From a bacterium (lineage in GTDB: Bacteria; Patescibacteriota; Minisyncoccia; Phycocordibacterales; UBA2100), in contig JAUSHX010000039.1 in assembly GCA_030648265.1 (NCBI GenBank), positions 1 to 35,176 on the forward strand: a stretch of DNA of 35,176 nucleotides. Direction: 5' to 3'. Shown here piece after piece: positions 543 to 34,765 of the stretch; the first letter of the stretch is position 1, and each line of letters starts with the position of its first letter. A model generated the notes under the pieces. That model worked only from the letters and a program-made list of their open reading frames with translations, was not told the origin of the DNA and did not search any database. The translations under genes and the position numbers were made by a program.

Positions 543-575
543 GCTCCCGCCTGCGCCGAGGCTTCGGCGGGCAGG
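543..575. repeat. Palindromic repeat, CCCGCCGAAGCCTCGGCGGAGGCGGG family
   Basis: Reverse complement CCTGCCCGCCGAAGCCTCGGCGCAGGCGGGAGC nearly matches the element inside rplL at 3815-3845. Confidence 0.8.
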
Positions 576-599
576 TCGGAGGACAAGCATATAGACATC

Positions 600-3376: not shown

Positions 3377-3597
3377 TTACTTCAAAGTAACCTTACCTCC
3401 ATCGCGTGTGTCAAAGTCTCTTATTCCAAAGTGACTTTGGCCGATTCGCTGCTGCGAATCGGCATCGCACGCACCGTCGTGCGCGTGACCACGGAAAAGT
3501 TACTTGAGAGTAACTTTTCCTCCATCGTCGAAATCTGCAGATTTCGACGTCATTCGCGCCGTCGCGCGAATGAGCACGCGGGAGTAAAGTTCCCTTA
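3377..3597 (-). repeat. Tandem array of bL12 C-terminal codons plus hairpins downstream of rplL
   Basis: Minus-strand copies encoding GGKVTLK-stop at 3595-3621 (genuine), 3500-3526 and 3377-3403, plus KVTLE-stop at 3421-3441. Confidence 0.75.
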
Positions 3598-4020
3598 TTT
3601 CAGAGTGACCTTTCCTCCCGCTGTCTCAATCTTTTTCTTCCACTCCTCCGCTGTCTCTTTCTTCACACCCTCCTTCAGCATCGCAGGGGCGCTCTCTACG
3701 AGGTCCTTCGCTTCCTTGAGACCAAGCGCGAGCACCTCCTTCACAACCTTGATGACCGCAATTTTCTGTTCTCCCATCGCAGTAAGTTCAACGTTGAATT
3801 CGCTCTTTTCCTCCTTGCCCGCCGAAGCCTCGGCGGAGGCGGGGCCGGCCACCGCAGCCTGCGCTGACACGCCGAATTTCTTTTCCAACACTTTAACGAG
3901 CTCGTTCAATTCCAATACGGTCATTTTCTCAACCTCATCTACCAGTTTCTTGAACTTCGCGGGCACTTCCACAGTTTCAGTTGTTGTTTGATTTTCATCC
4001 ATATTATTTTGTTGTTTCAT
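3595..4020 (-). CDS. rplL: 50S ribosomal protein bL12 (L7/L12)
   Basis: [13 protein letters not shown] hinge; [71 protein letters not shown]. Start may be the internal MDENQ methionine. Confidence 0.96.
3815..3845. repeat. Palindromic repeat inserted in frame in rplL
   Basis: TTGCCCGCCGAAGCCTCGGCGGAGGCGGGGC encodes [10 protein letters not shown] in the bL12 hinge. Confidence 0.8.
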
Positions 4021-8837: not shown

Positions 8838-9540
8838 TCGTTTCCGCCGGAGGCGGATCCGCCTTTGGCGGACGCTTTGTTTTCCATTCGTTTATTTTTC
8901 TCTGGTGGCCGGAGAGCAGGACTTTCGGCACGCGGTATTTCTTCCCCCTCCACACGAGAACTTCCGGGCGGGTGTAGACCTCGGGGCTAGAGACACGTGA
9001 GCGTTCCAGCGACTCTGCTTTGCCGAGCACTCCCGGAACAAACCGCGCGACCGCGTCAATAACTGTTGCCGCCGGCAGTTCCCCGCCGGTCAATACGTAG
9101 GGGCCGACTGAAACCGGCTTCGCTTTAAGAATCTTTGGCACGCGAGCGTCCACTCCCTCGTACCTGCCGCAAATCAGGAGGATGTTTTTCTTTTTTGAAA
9201 GTTTCTTCGCTAACGTTTCATCAAAAAGCACCCCGTCAGTGGAAAAAAAGATGCTCATGTCAAGGCGACGCCTTGACATGGCTTTTGAGGCTGCGCGAAG
9301 CATAGCCTCCGGCTCCAGTACCATCCCCGGCCCTCCGCCATACGGACGTTGGTCCACACGGCCGTATTTACCTGCCCCGTTAGAGCGCGAAGCGCCTCTA
9401 ACGGGGTTACGGGTAAAATCCTTCGGGTCGTAAAAAGAAATCTTGATGAGTTTCTTTTCTATTGCGCGCCCGAGAATAGAACTCTTCAGATAGGGCTCTA
9501 CCGAATCGGGAAACAACGTGATGATGTGGAAATGTAACAT
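8833..9540 (-). CDS. trmD: tRNA (guanine-N1)-methyltransferase
   Basis: MLHFHIITLFPDSVEPYLKSSILGRA; RVDQRPYGGGPGMVLEPEAM; LICGRYEGVDARV; SVGPYVLTGGELPAATVIDAVARFVPGVLG. Confidence 0.96.
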   Translation of the reverse strand: MLHFHIITLFPDSVEPYLKSSILGRAIEKKLIKISFYDPKDFTRNPVRGASRSNGAGKYGRVDQRPYGGGPGMVLEPEAMLRAASKAMSRRRLDMSIFFSTDGVLFDETLAKKLSKKKNILLICGRYEGVDARVPKILKAKPVSVGPYVLTGGELPAATVIDAVARFVPGVLGKAESLERSRVSSPEVYTRPEVLVWRGKKYRVPKVLLSGHQRKINEWKTKRPPKADPPPAETN

Positions 9541-11588: not shown

Positions 11589-13712
11589 TTATATATCCAG
11601 TGTCGCCTCCTTCGCGTGAGATTGAATGAATGACTTGCGTGCGGGGACATCGGTGCCCATCAACATATCAAAAACCATGTCGGCATCTTCCGCGTCTTCT
11701 ATAGTAACCAGTTTCAGAATTCTGCGGGCAGGGTCCATCGTAGTCTCCCACAATTCTTCAGAGTTCATTTCGCCCAATCCTTTGTATCGCTGAACGGATG
11801 TCTTGGGATTTTTCCCGCCGGAGGCGGGTCCGCCTCCGGCGGAAGTTTTTAATTTTGAGTCTTCTGTGCCTTCAGAATTTCCCTCACTGTCATCTGTCAA
11901 CTGTTCACTGTCCACTTCCTCTAATGGCGCATCTTTGCCTACGAGTTTCACCAACTCCTCGTCGGAATACGCGTAGTGAATTTCTTTTCCTCTCTTTATT
12001 TTGAACAAGGGCGGTTGAGCGATGTAAATAAATCCACCCTCTATCAACGGCTTGAAGTGCCGGTAAAAAAGTGTGAGGAGAAGCGTGCGGATGTGCGCGC
12101 CGTCAACATCGGCATCGGTCGCGATAATTATTTTGTGATAACGAAGTTTTTCTATATTGAACACATCGCCTATTGCAGTCCCCAGGGCGACGACGAGATT
12201 CTTGATTTGCTCCGACGCGAGCATTTTATCAATACGCGCACGCTCAATGTTCAAGATTTTTCCGCGAAGCGGAAGAATCGCCTGAATGCGTCTGTCGCGC
12301 CCCATCTTCGCGGTACCTCCGGCGGAATCTCCCTCAACGATGAATAGCTCCCCTTCTTCCGCGAGCCGAGTCTGGCAATCAGCGAGCTTACCGGGGAGCG
12401 TCATTCCATCTAAGGCCCCCTTGCGTAAGATGCTGTCTTTAGCCGCTTTTGCAGCTTTGCGCGCCTTCATCGCAAGAGAAATTTTGCCCAAAATCGCGCG
12501 CGACTCATCGGGATTTTCTTCAAGGAACATTCCAAATGCCTCGCTGAAAACAGTTTCCACAGCACCGCGCGCCTCAACGCTTCCGAGCTTGGATTTTGTT
12601 TGTCCTTCAAACTGTATTTCGCGCAATTTTACCGAAACGACGGCGGTAATACCCTCCAACACGTCATCGCCGGTAAAGGTTTCACTCTCTTTTGTTCCGT
12701 TGCCATTCTTAATTTGCGCGTTCAAAGTACGCGTAAGCGCCGACTTGAAACCCGTGATGTGCATTCCGCCCTCGCTGTTATAGATATTGTTTGCAAACGC
12801 AGATATTCTGGACGTTATGTCGTCCACATACTGGAGCGCAATTTCCACCTGCACGCCGTCCTGTTCTTTTTCCACATAGAAAACAGTTTTGTGTACCGGT
12901 TCAAGGTGCCTGTTGTGGAACGACACGAGCGAGCGCAAGCCTCCTTCAAAATAAAAAGTGATGGATGGCGCGTCCAAGCCCAATTCACGCAGGTTGAAAA
13001 CGCTTTCATCGTCAATCCGCCGGCCGGCGGATGCCGCTCCGCGCAAATCCAAAATCGTGATGCGCAGGCCGCGCACTAAGTACGCCTGCTGTCGCATGTG
13101 CGAGACAATCATTTCCCAATTCAATTCGCGGTCTGGGAAAATTGATGCGTCTGATTCATAAGTAATTATTGTTCCGTGCAATTTTGAAGTGCCGATTTTT
13201 TTTGCTTTGCCGACCGGCTTTCCGCCATTCTTATATTCCTGCATGTACTGCCCGCCGTCGCGATGCACCTCGGCGCGCACATGAGATGAAAGCGCGTTGA
13301 CGACGGAAACGCCGACGCCGTGAAGGCCGCCGGAAACTTTGTATCCGGCTCCGCCGAATTTTCCTCCGGCGTGTAACATGGTCATCACCGTCTCAAGGGT
13401 TGAGACTTTCGTTTTCGGATGAATGTCTACCGGAATACCGCGCCCGTTGTCGGCGACGCGCACGCGATTGTCCGGCAAAAGCGCGATTTCAATATCGTTT
13501 GCAAATCCTCCCATCGCCTCGTCGCGCGAGTTGTCAAAGACTTCCCAAATGAGGTGGTGTAGCCCTGTGGAGCTCGTCGTTCCGATGTACATTCCGGGTC
13601 GGCGACGCACCGCTTCCAGGCCTTCTAGTACTGTGATTGAGCTCGAGTCATACGAAGAACCCCCCGATTTCGGGGTGGGTTTTGCGGTCTTTTTCGCTTT
13701 CTTTTCAGCCAT
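11589..13712 (-). CDS. gyrB: DNA gyrase subunit B (type IIA topoisomerase ATPase)
   Basis: LEGLEAVRRRPGMYIGTT; GLHGVGVSVVNALS; EGDSAGGTAKMGRDRRIQAILPLRGKILNIE; QRYKGLGEMN. Start chosen at MAEKK. Confidence 0.94.
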   Translation of the reverse strand: MAEKKAKKTAKPTPKSGGSSYDSSSITVLEGLEAVRRRPGMYIGTTSSTGLHHLIWEVFDNSRDEAMGGFANDIEIALLPDNRVRVADNGRGIPVDIHPKTKVSTLETVMTMLHAGGKFGGAGYKVSGGLHGVGVSVVNALSSHVRAEVHRDGGQYMQEYKNGGKPVGKAKKIGTSKLHGTIITYESDASIFPDRELNWEMIVSHMRQQAYLVRGLRITILDLRGAASAGRRIDDESVFNLRELGLDAPSITFYFEGGLRSLVSFHNRHLEPVHKTVFYVEKEQDGVQVEIALQYVDDITSRISAFANNIYNSEGGMHITGFKSALTRTLNAQIKNGNGTKESETFTGDDVLEGITAVVSVKLREIQFEGQTKSKLGSVEARGAVETVFSEAFGMFLEENPDESRAILGKISLAMKARKAAKAAKDSILRKGALDGMTLPGKLADCQTRLAEEGELFIVEGDSAGGTAKMGRDRRIQAILPLRGKILNIERARIDKMLASEQIKNLVVALGTAIGDVFNIEKLRYHKIIIATDADVDGAHIRTLLLTLFYRHFKPLIEGGFIYIAQPPLFKIKRGKEIHYAYSDEELVKLVGKDAPLEEVDSEQLTDDSEGNSEGTEDSKLKTSAGGGPASGGKNPKTSVQRYKGLGEMNSEELWETTMDPARRILKLVTIEDAEDADMVFDMLMGTDVPARKSFIQSHAKEATLDI

Positions 13713-13782: not shown

Positions 13783-15663
13783 TTATCTCACTTCCCAGCC
13801 CTCTTTTTTGACCTCTTTATAGACCTTTTCCATCACTGCGTTTGCTTCTTCATCCGTCAACGTCTTTTCAAAAGATTGAATCACAAGGCGAAATGCGTAC
13901 GAGATTCTCGGCTGCTTTTCTCCGCCGGAGGCGGATCCTCCTCCGGAAGAAAACGTGTCAAACAATTCGCTCCGAATGAGAAGCGCGCCCGATTCTTTTC
14001 TGATAACTTCCAGCACCTCGTCCGGCTTCGTACCGATTGCCGTCCACAACGCGATATCGCGAACAATAAACGGATACCGAGAGAATGATTGATAGCGTTC
14101 CAAATCGGAAATCGGGAGATTTTCGTATCTGGACGCAGGAACTTCGGTTTTGAATTTTGACAAAGCCGTTTGCGTCGCTTTTTCCTTCTCACCGATACAC
14201 CCAACCACAATTTCTTCTTTATAAGAATCCCAAATGGTGCCAATCTCAAATAGCTTCACCTCTTTCAAACCCAAAATATCTTTGTTCCGTATATTTTTCT
14301 CTAAAGCTTGCGCTAATCCGTCCGTCAGATTCGTGCGCAGGTACGGCCTCTCCCCTCCCATTTTGTTCAAGACTTCCCGTTTGCCCTTGTCGGCGAACAC
14401 AGACGTGTACACTTCAGAATACCCTTTCTCAATTAATTCCTCGCGAACATTTTCAGCCGCATAAAAATTCGCGTTAACCTCCGGCTTTTTCGAGAACGCC
14501 GGAAGCTCCGCAGAAGGAATTTTGTCGTACCCGACAATGCGCGCGACTTCTTCAACCAAATCTTCCGGGATTTCCAAATCAAGACGCTCAAACGGCACCT
14601 CAACCTTGAAAATGCAGTGAGGCGTCGCCTCACTGCATTTGTACGGGAGGCCGAGACGAGCCAGTGCATCGGCAATATCTTTTTCTCCGAGCGCGGTTCC
14701 CAAAATGCGATTTACCTGCGACACCGAAACCACAACTTGTTTTTCAACTTGCGGAACCGGATATTCATCAACAAATCCCAAAACCTCCCCACCAGCACCT
14801 CGACCTTGCTCTGGGCAAGCAATCTTCAGAATTAAATCTGTCACCGCGCGCATGCCATACCCGGCAAGTTCGGGAGAAATGCTTTGTTCAAATCTTTGAG
14901 ATGCATCTGTTCGCAATTTCAGTGCTTGCGCTGTTTTCCGAACTGAAATGCCGTCAAAATTTGCTGATTCCAGAATTATTTCGGTGGTTGCTTCACTTAC
15001 TTCTGCCGATTTCCCTCCTTTCACGCCGGCGATTCCAATGGCTTTGTCTGTGTTTCTGTTCACGATAACCAACATGGAATCCGAGAGAATGTATTCCTTC
15101 CCATCAAGTGTGGTGATTTTCTCTCCTTTCTTCGCATTCCGTATTTGTATTTTGAACTGTCTACTGTCAACTGTAGACTGTCCACTTTTTGATGCGAGCT
15201 TGCCCGCGTCAAAAGCATGTAGCGGCTGGCCCAGATTGAACATCACAAAGTTCGCCGCATCAACAATATTGTTGATTGATTTCTGGCCTATTGATTCAAG
15301 ATTCTCCCGCAACCAATCCGGCGACGGGCCGACTTTCACGCCACGGATGTAGCCCGCAATGTACCGTGCACACAAAGGAGTATCAATTGAAACCGTAACT
15401 GAATCTGTTTTTGGCAAAAGCGATACCGGCTCTCGGAGCGGATCGCTTTTCATCGGAATATTCAAAATCGCGGAAATTTCTTTCGCAATTCCGCGGTGCG
15501 AAAGGCAGTCGTGCCCGCGGTTCGGCGTTACCTTTACATCCAGAATGTTCCCTTCCACACTTTCTATCTCAAACGCATGAAATGTGAGCGCGTCCGAGAG
15601 CGCCTGTGCATCCGGTAGCGGTGCAGTGAAAAAAGTTTGTAGCCAGTTTCTGGATATTTTCAT
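13783..15663 (-). CDS. pheT: Phenylalanyl-tRNA synthetase beta subunit, shortened
   Basis: MKISRNWLQTFF...VTPNRGHDCLSHRGIAKEIS; VEEVARIVGYDKIP; C-terminal FDX-ACB-like region. Adjacent to pheS. Confidence 0.94.
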   Translation of the reverse strand: MKISRNWLQTFFTAPLPDAQALSDALTFHAFEIESVEGNILDVKVTPNRGHDCLSHRGIAKEISAILNIPMKSDPLREPVSLLPKTDSVTVSIDTPLCARYIAGYIRGVKVGPSPDWLRENLESIGQKSINNIVDAANFVMFNLGQPLHAFDAGKLASKSGQSTVDSRQFKIQIRNAKKGEKITTLDGKEYILSDSMLVIVNRNTDKAIGIAGVKGGKSAEVSEATTEIILESANFDGISVRKTAQALKLRTDASQRFEQSISPELAGYGMRAVTDLILKIACPEQGRGAGGEVLGFVDEYPVPQVEKQVVVSVSQVNRILGTALGEKDIADALARLGLPYKCSEATPHCIFKVEVPFERLDLEIPEDLVEEVARIVGYDKIPSAELPAFSKKPEVNANFYAAENVREELIEKGYSEVYTSVFADKGKREVLNKMGGERPYLRTNLTDGLAQALEKNIRNKDILGLKEVKLFEIGTIWDSYKEEIVVGCIGEKEKATQTALSKFKTEVPASRYENLPISDLERYQSFSRYPFIVRDIALWTAIGTKPDEVLEVIRKESGALLIRSELFDTFSSGGGSASGGEKQPRISYAFRLVIQSFEKTLTDEEANAVMEKVYKEVKKEGWEVR

Positions 15664-19025: not shown

Positions 19026-20123
19026 TTAGAAATTGAAGACGGGATTTATAATCCCCGCTGTCGCAAGCGCGTTCCCAAGATTCAACAATGCCAGCGCAAT
19101 CACAATAATTCCGGCTGTTTTGAAAAATATCCCCTTCCATGGTTTGTGTGCGATATTGAGAGAGCCGAATGAGAGAAGTGCGAGCACCGGCAAGGTGCCG
19201 AGAGCAAAAACAAACATCGTAAGCGCGCCTTCCATAAAGTTTCCGGTTGAAAGCGCATACAATTGCATGGATTGCGTGAATCCGCATGGCAGAAAGAACG
19301 TACCGATGCCAACGAGCACGGGCGCCAGGTAGTGGTCGTGCTTGCTCCCGCGCACCACGTGCCGTGAAAATATTTTAGGGATGGTGAATTGCAAACGTTT
19401 TGTGAAATGGAAAACATCCAACAGGTTGATGCCGAGAATGAGCATTACGAGCGCGACAATGATTCCAAGAACGATGTTTGCGGTCAATCCGAGGTGAAGC
19501 GAATTACCGACAACACCCACGGCACCGCCGAGGACAAAGAAACCGACAATCCTTCCCACGTGAAATAACGATTGTGTCCGCCATGTCCCCCCCTCTTTCG
19601 CGGAAATCGCCGAGAGCGAGAGTACAAGTCCGCCGACAACTGCAAGACAAGTGGATACCGAGGCGATGAGCCCGAGCACAAACGCGGTTCCATAACTTAC
19701 ATCCGATGAAGTGATGAGATTGGTTAACCCAATTTCTTGAAGCGCCAAAAATCCCACGATAATGACAAGGGCAATCGGAAGCGCGTACACAAAATCCCCC
19801 CACCCCGCGCCTTTTTGCGCTCTTTCCAATGAGACCGTATAGCCGTGGCTTTTTACCAGTTCTGTAAGTTTTTCAGCAATCAATTCCGGCGGCTCCGAAA
19901 AATCCCCTGTGATTGTCACCTGATGATTCGGAAGCGATGCCTGAACATTAGTTACGTTCGGAAGTTCCTTGAAAGTTTCTTCAATAAGAAGCGTGCATGC
20001 GGAGCAGTGCATTCCGTGGACGTGAAAGGTGTACGTCTTTTGTTCCGGATTCGGGCCGATGAGTCCGACATCGGCATCTGTAGACGAGCCAATAGGGTCG
20101 GTATTGGCATCTGTAGACGACAT
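19026..20123 (-). CDS. HMA domain fused to a TauE/SafE (DsbD-like) membrane protein
   Basis: YTFHVHGMHCSACTLLIEETFKELPNVTNVQASL followed by multi-TM; start chosen at MSSTDAN. Confidence 0.82.
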   Translation of the reverse strand: MSSTDANTDPIGSSTDADVGLIGPNPEQKTYTFHVHGMHCSACTLLIEETFKELPNVTNVQASLPNHQVTITGDFSEPPELIAEKLTELVKSHGYTVSLERAQKGAGWGDFVYALPIALVIIVGFLALQEIGLTNLITSSDVSYGTAFVLGLIASVSTCLAVVGGLVLSLSAISAKEGGTWRTQSLFHVGRIVGFFVLGGAVGVVGNSLHLGLTANIVLGIIVALVMLILGINLLDVFHFTKRLQFTIPKIFSRHVVRGSKHDHYLAPVLVGIGTFFLPCGFTQSMQLYALSTGNFMEGALTMFVFALGTLPVLALLSFGSLNIAHKPWKGIFFKTAGIIVIALALLNLGNALATAGIINPVFNF

Positions 20124-20417: not shown

Positions 20418-20447
20418 AGTTTTATTACCGAGGACGGTCCTCGGTAT

Positions 20448-26623: not shown

Positions 26624-27667
26624 CTATATCCCGCATCCGCTCTGCTGGCGCTGTTGAGGCGCGGGCGAATCAGCAGATTTCGTGGCTTGGCCCGTTCCAC
26701 CTCCGGCTTCTACTCCGCAGCCATTGCCCCCGCCACTTTGGGAAGGCGTGCTGACTTGCGATGCAATATTCCTGAATCCCGCGACGCTTGAATAATCCGC
26801 GCCAAGCATCTCTTGCGGAGAAACCTTTTTCCAGTCAATCCCTTTGTTCTGCATGTATTCCGCAATCGTGAGATATGTGTCCGGGAACCAGTATGAATTT
26901 ACCGCGAGAGCCGCTTTGTACATTTCTTTTTCGCTTACGCCTTGGGCGGCCATAAGCTCAAGAAGCCCTAGCATCGCGAGCCCGTGATTACAATCGGGAA
27001 AGTGTGTTGAATTTCCGCAGCACGGGCGGTAAATGTTCTGCGACACGCGGTCAACAAGTTCTTGTTGCGCCGGCGTCAACGTTACAAGCATATGCTTGCT
27101 GTAATGTTCCATCGCGTTTCCCTTTGCCACCGTCCACCCGCCCGTGGAAGCGAAGTTGCCCGCGTCTCCGTAAGCGGGATTCATCATTTCCGTTTTGTCC
27201 TCAAGTATGGGATTTTTGTTGGCAAGTCCGAATGCCCATAACAAGTTCAGGAGATATCCGGCATTGTCTTCAGTTATGGTAAGCGCGCCGTTTGTGCGTC
27301 CGGAAAGAAGATTCTCGTAATCGGCGGGAAACTGGCCGATGGGATTGGCATCGGCACCTGTAGACGGGCGCCCCTCGTACACTTTCTTGAACGCGACTGG
27401 GTCAATGGCTCCCGCTTCCACGAGCCGGGCGCCCAAGTTTCCCCAAGTAACCGGCAATGTCACACCCTTTGCGGGGAGTACCGCTTCTTCAATGGCGGAA
27501 CGGATTGCGTCCACCGCCTGATTAATTCCAAGAAGTTCAACTGTGCGCGATACCTGCGACGGTGACATCGCACTCGCGATGATAACCCCCGCAATAATAA
27601 TGCTTAATGGAATTGAATACTTGTCCAACACGGCTTCAATTTTGTTTTTTTGTGTTCCTTGTTCCAT
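26624..27667 (-). CDS. Cys-rich hypothetical protein with CCGNSTHFPDCNHG motif
   Basis: N-terminal TM; NIYRPCCGNSTHFPDCNHGLAMLGLLELMAAQGVSEKEMY; C-terminal CGVEAGGG...SGCGI. Confidence 0.7.
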   Translation of the reverse strand: MEQGTQKNKIEAVLDKYSIPLSIIIAGVIIASAMSPSQVSRTVELLGINQAVDAIRSAIEEAVLPAKGVTLPVTWGNLGARLVEAGAIDPVAFKKVYEGRPSTGADANPIGQFPADYENLLSGRTNGALTITEDNAGYLLNLLWAFGLANKNPILEDKTEMMNPAYGDAGNFASTGGWTVAKGNAMEHYSKHMLVTLTPAQQELVDRVSQNIYRPCCGNSTHFPDCNHGLAMLGLLELMAAQGVSEKEMYKAALAVNSYWFPDTYLTIAEYMQNKGIDWKKVSPQEMLGADYSSVAGFRNIASQVSTPSQSGGGNGCGVEAGGGTGQATKSADSPAPQQRQQSGCGI

Positions 27668-33003: not shown

Positions 33004-33291
33004 TTATGCGTGGATGTCCTTTTTCATGCTTTCAAACTGCTCCTTCGTCAGTTCTCCCTTTGCGTAACGTGTCTTAAGAATATCCAACGCTGTACCATGT
33101 GCAGAATTGGTTGAGCTATTATTTGAGCCGATAGAGTGGGTATCGGCACCTGTAGACGGGCTGGAAGATGCATTTCGCACGAGCCAGACAATGCCGGCAA
33201 TGACAAGCGCCCAAAAAGCGAGCATTCCGATAAACCCGATGAAATGAAACGGCAAGAAGCCACCGTCATAATTCCCGTAGTAGTACATCAT
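33004..33291 (-). CDS. Membrane protein with C-terminal SHOCT motif
   Basis: N-terminal TM; ALDILKTRYAKGELTKEQFESMKKDI. Confidence 0.88.
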   Translation of the reverse strand: MMYYYGNYDGGFLPFHFIGFIGMLAFWALVIAGIVWLVRNASSSPSTGADTHSIGSNNSSTNSAHGTALDILKTRYAKGELTKEQFESMKKDIHA

Positions 33292-34448: not shown

Positions 34449-34765
34449 ATTTAGTTAGAGTTTTTAATGCTTCAATCTAGGCGCAATGGTAGCATGGCCC
34501 CTGAAACTCAACAATTGAAAATTTGCACACGGTGCCAGTCAACAGGCACATCAGATGGAGATGTGCGCCCGTAGACGGCGGTCCCTCTCGGGGGATGCGA
34601 GGGACTGTGGAAAACCTCAACGGCTCAGACCCCGTATGAGCCGTTTGGCGTGGCTTAATTCCTGCATTTCATCAGGGCTATACGCTACTCGCTATCCGCT
34701 ATTCCCTCACCCTCATTGCATCTTTCCTATTGCCTATTTTTTCCTAGTGCCTTTTGCCTACCCAA

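Follow-up and report, generated by a model that had tools for sequence, protein, structure and literature searches.

Four short repeats in frame in the pheT gene of a patescibacterium, one of them a palindrome shared with a RAYT transposase gene

Background

How do four different short repeats come to lie, in frame, in the gene for one subunit of a tRNA-charging enzyme? The question is raised by pheT, which encodes the phenylalanine--tRNA ligase beta subunit (626 aa; 13783..15663, reverse strand) in a stretch of 35,176 nucleotides, here called the window. The window is contig C4 of its own genome (G000), a metagenome-assembled genome of 943 kb in 40 contigs whose nearest named relatives by PheT are Candidatus Kaiserbacteria. 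A preliminary description of the window saw in PheT a hotspot of four different repeat families, each lying where canonical PheT would join directly. All four stretches are present within the PheT ORF where that description placed them, and they belong to different element classes.

Here we describe the four inserts and their counterparts in related genomes. The 31-bp palindrome in pheT is very probably a short, non-autonomous mobile element of the REP/RAYT kind, and the other three inserts further short repeats that are tolerated.

Results

Four inserts in the loops of PheT

The PheT ORF scores 424.6 bits against NCBIfam TIGR00472, above the cut-off of 402.65, and comprises B3_4, B5, tRNA_synthFbeta (core) and FDX-ACB domains. 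Insertion status was judged by a PheT alignment of 29 congeneric genomes. Insert 1 (family B; 13918..13951, reverse strand) is a 30-bp dyad of GGCGGATCC that encodes SSGGGSASGGE, part of an FDX-ACB-domain loop. In the alignment it is missing from the two closest PheTs (G038 and G008); GGSASGG stands at the site in G043, and different inserts are found at or adjoining the loop in G003 and G020. Insert 2 (family A; 14610..14640, reverse strand) is a 31-bp palindrome whose translation, KCSEATPHCIF, forms part of a beta-hairpin loop in the B5 domain. As previously described it is perfect, with 15+1+15 nucleotides. In relatives the site is either occupied or differs in length by just 4-5 codons, so that the inserted unit is not cleanly defined. 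Most congeners have no palindrome at this site, yet their pheT is intact.

Insert 3 (family C; about 14794..14820, reverse strand) is 24 nt long and read as ACPEQGRG between the helix at 265-282 and the strand at 293-300. It is a clean addition of 8 codons, present in this species only among the 29 aligned, and the native reading joins KI to AGGE; the GGEV that follows the insert is native sequence. A GC-rich repeat had been described at 14785-14820. The extra sequence is there, but it is confined to these 24 nt and is not repeated in its own genome, where one copy is found within 2 mismatches. Insert 4 (family D; 15157..15190, reverse strand) is a heptamer array, AGTnnAC x4 on the coding strand, and no palindrome; it is translated as SGQSTVDSRQ, which belongs to a B3/4-domain loop. 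According to the alignment this loop is filled differently in other species: by arrays of AGGCAAn (G038, G008) or of AGCTTCT (G025, G047), and in G019 by a double AGGTTTAACCT palindrome.

The earlier view that the stretches are insertions is upheld by Thermus PheT, in which the loops are shorter by about 6, 4, 8 and 12 aa for inserts 1, 2, 3 and 4; equally long unrelated sequence, which in most bacterial PheT would speak against insertion, did not occur. The direct joining of canonical PheT is exact for insert 3 and close for insert 1, but loose for inserts 2 and 4, which sit in length-variable loops that are also filled in relatives and are not clean joins. Across Parcubacteria the loops at the insert sites vary in length. 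Clean empty sites are restricted to insert 3 and a family B copy in gyrB.

In an AlphaFold model of PheT built with window and database relatives (mean pLDDT 81.6), all four inserts are predicted in coil between secondary-structure elements, the palindrome of insert 2 between strands 341-344 and 351-356. The pLDDT falls below 50 at aa 161-163, 286-290 and 576-582, the last of these at insert 1. The frame is open throughout the four inserts. PheT probably remains active despite them.

Five congeneric genomes (G044, G051, G011, G001 and G007; loci L181-L185, adjoining gyrB), one of which is 99% complete, are without PheS and PheT. The substitute in the same five genomes is one protein of ~380 aa that combines PheS and FDX-ACB and resembles the mitochondrial monomeric PheRS. 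This protein is also similar to the NCBIfam 'PheS-related mystery ligase SrmL', below the cut-off. G044 retains a 36-aa remnant of the PheT C-terminus. This suggests that in these five genomes a single-chain PheRS has taken the place of the four-chain enzyme.

Palindrome A and the RAYT genes of its own genome

The sequence of insert 2, hereafter palindrome A, is that of the palindromes beside a RAYT gene on contig C16 of the same genome. A DNA search of this genome finds about a dozen further occurrences of the 31-bp palindrome. When 1 mismatch is allowed, its 21-nt core has 12 copies in G000 and the reversed control has 0; elsewhere the core is found in G008 (3), G043 (2) and G044 (3) and is absent from the remaining 48 genomes. 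A minority of the 12 strict copies is intragenic, and the copies are spread over a mix of unrelated genes and intergenic places. Their outer arms differ between copies and pair within a copy, with 54 pairs beyond the core versus 23 when permuted (p=5e-5).

Two copies, a decayed one at C16:3042-3070 and a perfect one at C16:3761-3795, bracket the RAYT ORF. The ORF is 225 aa long, matches PF01797 (Y1_Tnp) above the cut-off and has the HUH motif MPNHFH; a comparison by sequence with the PDB gave no match. PF01797 is above the cut-off in three of the four RAYTs of this genome. The three other RAYT genes each have their own, different palindrome both adjoining and inside the ORF. One copy of such a palindrome, palindrome E (TACCGAGGACCGTCCTCGGTA), which is cognate to the RAYT on contig C35, lies in the window at 20426..20446. 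Palindrome A is best read as a REP-like palindrome that would be mobilised by the C16 RAYT. The cognate RAYT transposase was absent from the preliminary description.

RAYT genes and palindromes in the genus and class

Of the 52 genomes in the genus, 46 have a homologue of the C16 RAYT; for the class the figure is 108 of the 188 genomes sampled. Within the genus, palindromes are present on both sides of 65/105 RAYT loci versus 3/150 control ORFs. Upstream and downstream palindromes share at least 12 nt at 58/105 RAYT loci, versus 1/150 control ORFs. Of 26 RAYT loci in the wider class, 8 have a palindrome both upstream and downstream; at 4 the two sides share at least 12 nt. The RAYT palindromes are mostly 19-31 nt long with a 1-nt centre, and often have an AGG..CCT core. 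A GTAG/CGTC tag at the palindrome foot was not found: GTAG accounts for 3.5% of flank 12-mers versus a background of 1.9%, and CGTC for 1.9% versus 3.6%. The palindrome of G023 has 8 copies in that genome and is rare in others.

In 11 of the 28 genomes for which PheT and RAYT flanks were both read, PheT and a RAYT palindrome of that genome have at least 18 nt in common. When genomes are permuted the mean is 0.96 and the number never exceeds 6 (p<5e-5). In the other 17, PheT matches none of the RAYTs sampled from the same genome. For GyrB, matches of at least 16 nt to same-genome RAYT palindromes were found in 0 of 22 genomes.

Turnover at fixed sites

Seven species have palindromes in PheT with the same centre base. 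These palindromes are near-perfect and differ in arms and cores: 7 of 15 base pairs have changed on both sides, and 89.5% of the cells are paired. Sliding the partner by 1-3 columns lowers the pairing to 31-50%. The palindromes at this site in G000, G023 and G006 match those of their own RAYT over 27, 23 and 26 nt, and that of G038 does so over 19 nt. The pheT palindromes of G008, G043 and G010 have no match to any sampled RAYT of their own genome. G000 and G043 differ at an orthologous locus: the former has palindrome A, the latter the palindrome that goes with its own RAYT. Because relatives mostly have the same or another palindrome at the sites of palindrome A, no target-site rule can be derived.

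The RAYT genes themselves are affected. An in-frame palindrome is present at one homologous place in 22 RAYT genes, 60-89 nt before the codon of the HUH histidine. Together with 2 further ones these make 24 internal palindromes, 23 of which match the flanks of their own gene over at least 15 nt, versus 3.7% for RAYTs of other genomes; one of the 2 further palindromes matches over 14 nt, below the threshold. Where the in-frame palindrome precedes the HUH motif (L078, L079, L080 and many loci of the genus), a protein loop is dictated by the DNA site that the RAYT presumably recognises.

The data fit a concerted turnover of palindromes at fixed places, together with their transposase. Hairpin exchange, conversion and repeated insertion at a preferred site would each be compatible with the turnover data.

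Other repeat families

Family B (TCCGCCnnnGGCGGATCCGCC) is patchy and is found in 24/52 genomes. It has about 20 matches per strand in G000, many of which are the two orientations of one dyad, and in genes it is usually read as SAxGGSASGG. The gyrB copy (11814..11843, reverse strand) is read as TSAGGGPASGG; exactly these 30 nt are absent in the closest relative, G044, which leaves a clean empty site. Another copy lies at the 3' end of trmD (8843..8872, reverse strand). A RAYT with the family B palindrome (GGCGGATCC) was not found among the flanks of the 105 genus and 26 class RAYTs. Family C has one copy in G000, and diverged hairpin relatives (CCCCTCGACnnnGCTCGGGG) are present in 9 other genomes of the genus (control 0). 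The link from RAYT to palindrome covers one of the four pheT inserts, insert 2.

The window contains further repeats. One family consists of GCCGATnnn..ATCGGC followed by ACCTGTAGACGGGC, which contains GTAG, and is found at 20055-20122, 27335-27369, 33127-33161, 34546-34580 and 1111-1144. Some of its copies are in frame within genes, for example as STGADANPIGQ in the ORF at 26624-27667. A GC-rich dyad of the CCCGCCGAAGCCTCGGCGG type (3809-3843) is in frame in an ORF (3595-4020) that resembles ribosomal protein L7/L12, and a second dyad of this type lies near the left end of the window (546-580). Short tandem repeats of the ACGCAGACGGTCGCAGAC type are present at 164-202 and 383-421, in the first 500 bases.

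PheT compared with other genes

Palindromes with arms of at least 9 number 50 in the PheT of 43 congeners, versus 2.6 expected from codon-shuffled genes. Their density is ~6x that in GyrB (50 in 78.3 kb versus 7 in 62.5 kb). Inserts of at least 4 aa number 42 in 29 species for PheT (2.4 per 1000 aa per species) and 24 in 30 species for GyrB (1.2 per 1000 aa per species). No other gene has more than about two inserts in the quarter of G000 that was sampled. PheT exceeds GyrB in both palindromes and inserts and is therefore a favoured host, although GyrB and other genes are also affected. The proposed hotspot stands as an enrichment relative to GyrB, a comparison that leans mainly on this one comparator gene and on a base-by-base reading of about a quarter of the own genome; the phenomenon itself is genome- and genus-wide and is not special to PheT.

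Genomes with more RAYTs tend to have more PheT palindromes, with a weak correlation (Spearman 0.36, p=0.019). Some RAYT-free genomes retain a few PheT palindromes, and the test 'no RAYT = no palindromes' is not clean. In G034 and G035 no RAYT is detected, yet their PheT has palindromes of the same style, which would have to be relics.

Discussion

A model for the palindromes and the alternatives

In the model proposed here, the Y1/HUH single-strand transposase (RAYT) encoded on C16 between two palindrome copies would recognise the hairpin of the palindrome. Copies would be seeded round the genome, some of them in frame into protein genes, and would survive at sites that lie in a surface loop and where the reading frame stays open. 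Once inserted, they would stay near-perfect and change sequence together with the palindromes that flank the RAYT. The GGCGGATCC dyad, the hairpin relative and the heptamer array in pheT would be tolerated for the same structural reason. From the observed sequences, cognate flanking, copy number, in-frame loops, covariation and same-site turnover, we infer that the RAYT protein probably catalyses the spread of the palindromes; the hairpins may be exchanged in place.

Base pairs that covary at the pheT site, and outer arms that pair beyond the core in the 12 copies (54 versus 23 permuted, p=5e-5), would also be expected if the palindromes were not mobile and host selection maintained them for their RNA or DNA structure, for instance as mRNA hairpins that tune the translation or stability of pheT. 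We consider this unlikely, as the sequence itself, beyond its pairing, matches the RAYT flanks of the same genome, copies lie in unrelated genes and intergenic places, and pheT is intact in most congeners that have no palindrome at the site. Palindromes could also be created and perfected with no transposase by quasipalindrome correction, that is, template switching at replication. Such a process accounts for covarying arms that differ between copies and for the small net length changes at the pheT site, but it leaves unexplained the identity with RAYT flanks (58/105) and the restriction of one 21-nt core, with its 12 copies, to four genomes that are close relatives. As the sole source of the palindromes it is very unlikely; it may act as an additional polishing process. 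Hardly any credence can be given to ordinary variation of PheT loop length or to assembly artefacts, even though the loops are length-variable across Parcubacteria and the genome is metagenome-assembled. The excess of palindromes, the open frame throughout, the clean 30-nt empty site of a family B copy and the same behaviour in independent assemblies of other species all speak against it. Chance and ordinary loop variation were rejected by codon shuffles (50 versus 2.6) and genome permutations (11/28, p<5e-5).

A stronger form of the REP/RAYT explanation holds that the RAYT replaces one hairpin by another at sites already occupied, which would keep every copy in a genome in step with the transposase as it diverges. 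It is suggested by the 22 RAYT genes with an in-frame palindrome at one homologous place and the agreement of internal palindromes with their own flanks (23/24 versus 3.7%), by different cognate palindromes at the same pheT base, and by the orthologous locus with palindrome A in G000 and the own-RAYT palindrome in G043. However, repeated insertion with a strong target preference could look alike, as could selection on the RAYT ends combined with conversion among nearby copies, and the pheT palindromes of G008, G043 and G010 match no sampled RAYT of their own genome. In-place replacement is put forward tentatively, as somewhat less than an even prospect.

Significance

The REP/RAYT explanation means that selfish DNA is translated as loops of an essential tRNA-charging enzyme in a small-genome bacterium. 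Translated palindromic inserts have been known as an oddity since the Rickettsia elements; here they are linked, in dozens of genomes, to a single-strand transposase that can be identified, and the same protein loop rewritten by different palindromes provides a natural series. If in-place exchange is true, PheT loops (e.g. SEATPHC versus NEMSSHC) are rewritten in concert with transposase specificity. It is conceivable, though we would not yet call it probable, that in Patescibacteria the RAYT writes its present cognate palindrome over those already in place, both in essential genes and in its own gene, with loops rewritten without damage to the frame. Two questions become testable: how REP-like palindromes spread and how selfish DNA is tolerated in essential genes under streamlining. 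Caution is also called for, as protein loops in Patescibacteria can be derived from mobile DNA rather than functional. Among the open-licence literature no paper describing palindromes or RAYT in Patescibacteria or Kaiserbacteria was found.

Comparison with known systems

The STRR repeats of cyanobacteria are seven-base tandem arrays. Insert 4 is likewise a seven-base tandem array, but its unit sequence differs between species and the array lies within a gene. With IS200/IS605 TnpA elements the system shares a Y1 transposase with hairpins at both ends, and a single-strand mechanism would be expected. A palindrome-RAYT-palindrome unit is present at C16, which may be an autonomous element. Unlike those elements, the PF01797 match here is partial and weak, and the hairpins also occur alone in many places.

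REP elements with TnpAREP/RAYT are known as REPtrons, and group 3 has perfect palindromes (PMC2817692, PMC8266576). The features in common are palindromes of 20-40 nt beside a Y1/HUH transposase gene, dispersal in the genome and a RAYT-specific sequence. However, there is no GTAG/CGTC guide at the palindrome foot here. REPtron palindromes are extragenic and have >100 copies, whereas here there are about 10 copies per family and many families per genome, the palindromes are often inside genes, including the RAYT gene itself, and the hosts are Patescibacteria. From its sequence features the system would work like a REPtron, but it is not filed as a classical REP family because it lacks the tag, the extragenic position and the high copy number that are usual in such families.

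Palindromes that lie in frame within genes have been described in Rickettsia, as the Rickettsia palindromic elements (RPE), and in a few species as intragenic REPs (PMC3733652). Like RPE, the repeats described here are palindromic and lie in frame in unrelated genes for functional proteins (pheT, gyrB and RAYT ORFs). They differ in being 25-31 bp long with a 1-nt centre, in having an identified cognate RAYT and in belonging to a different phylum. Rickettsia palindromic elements are the closest analogue.
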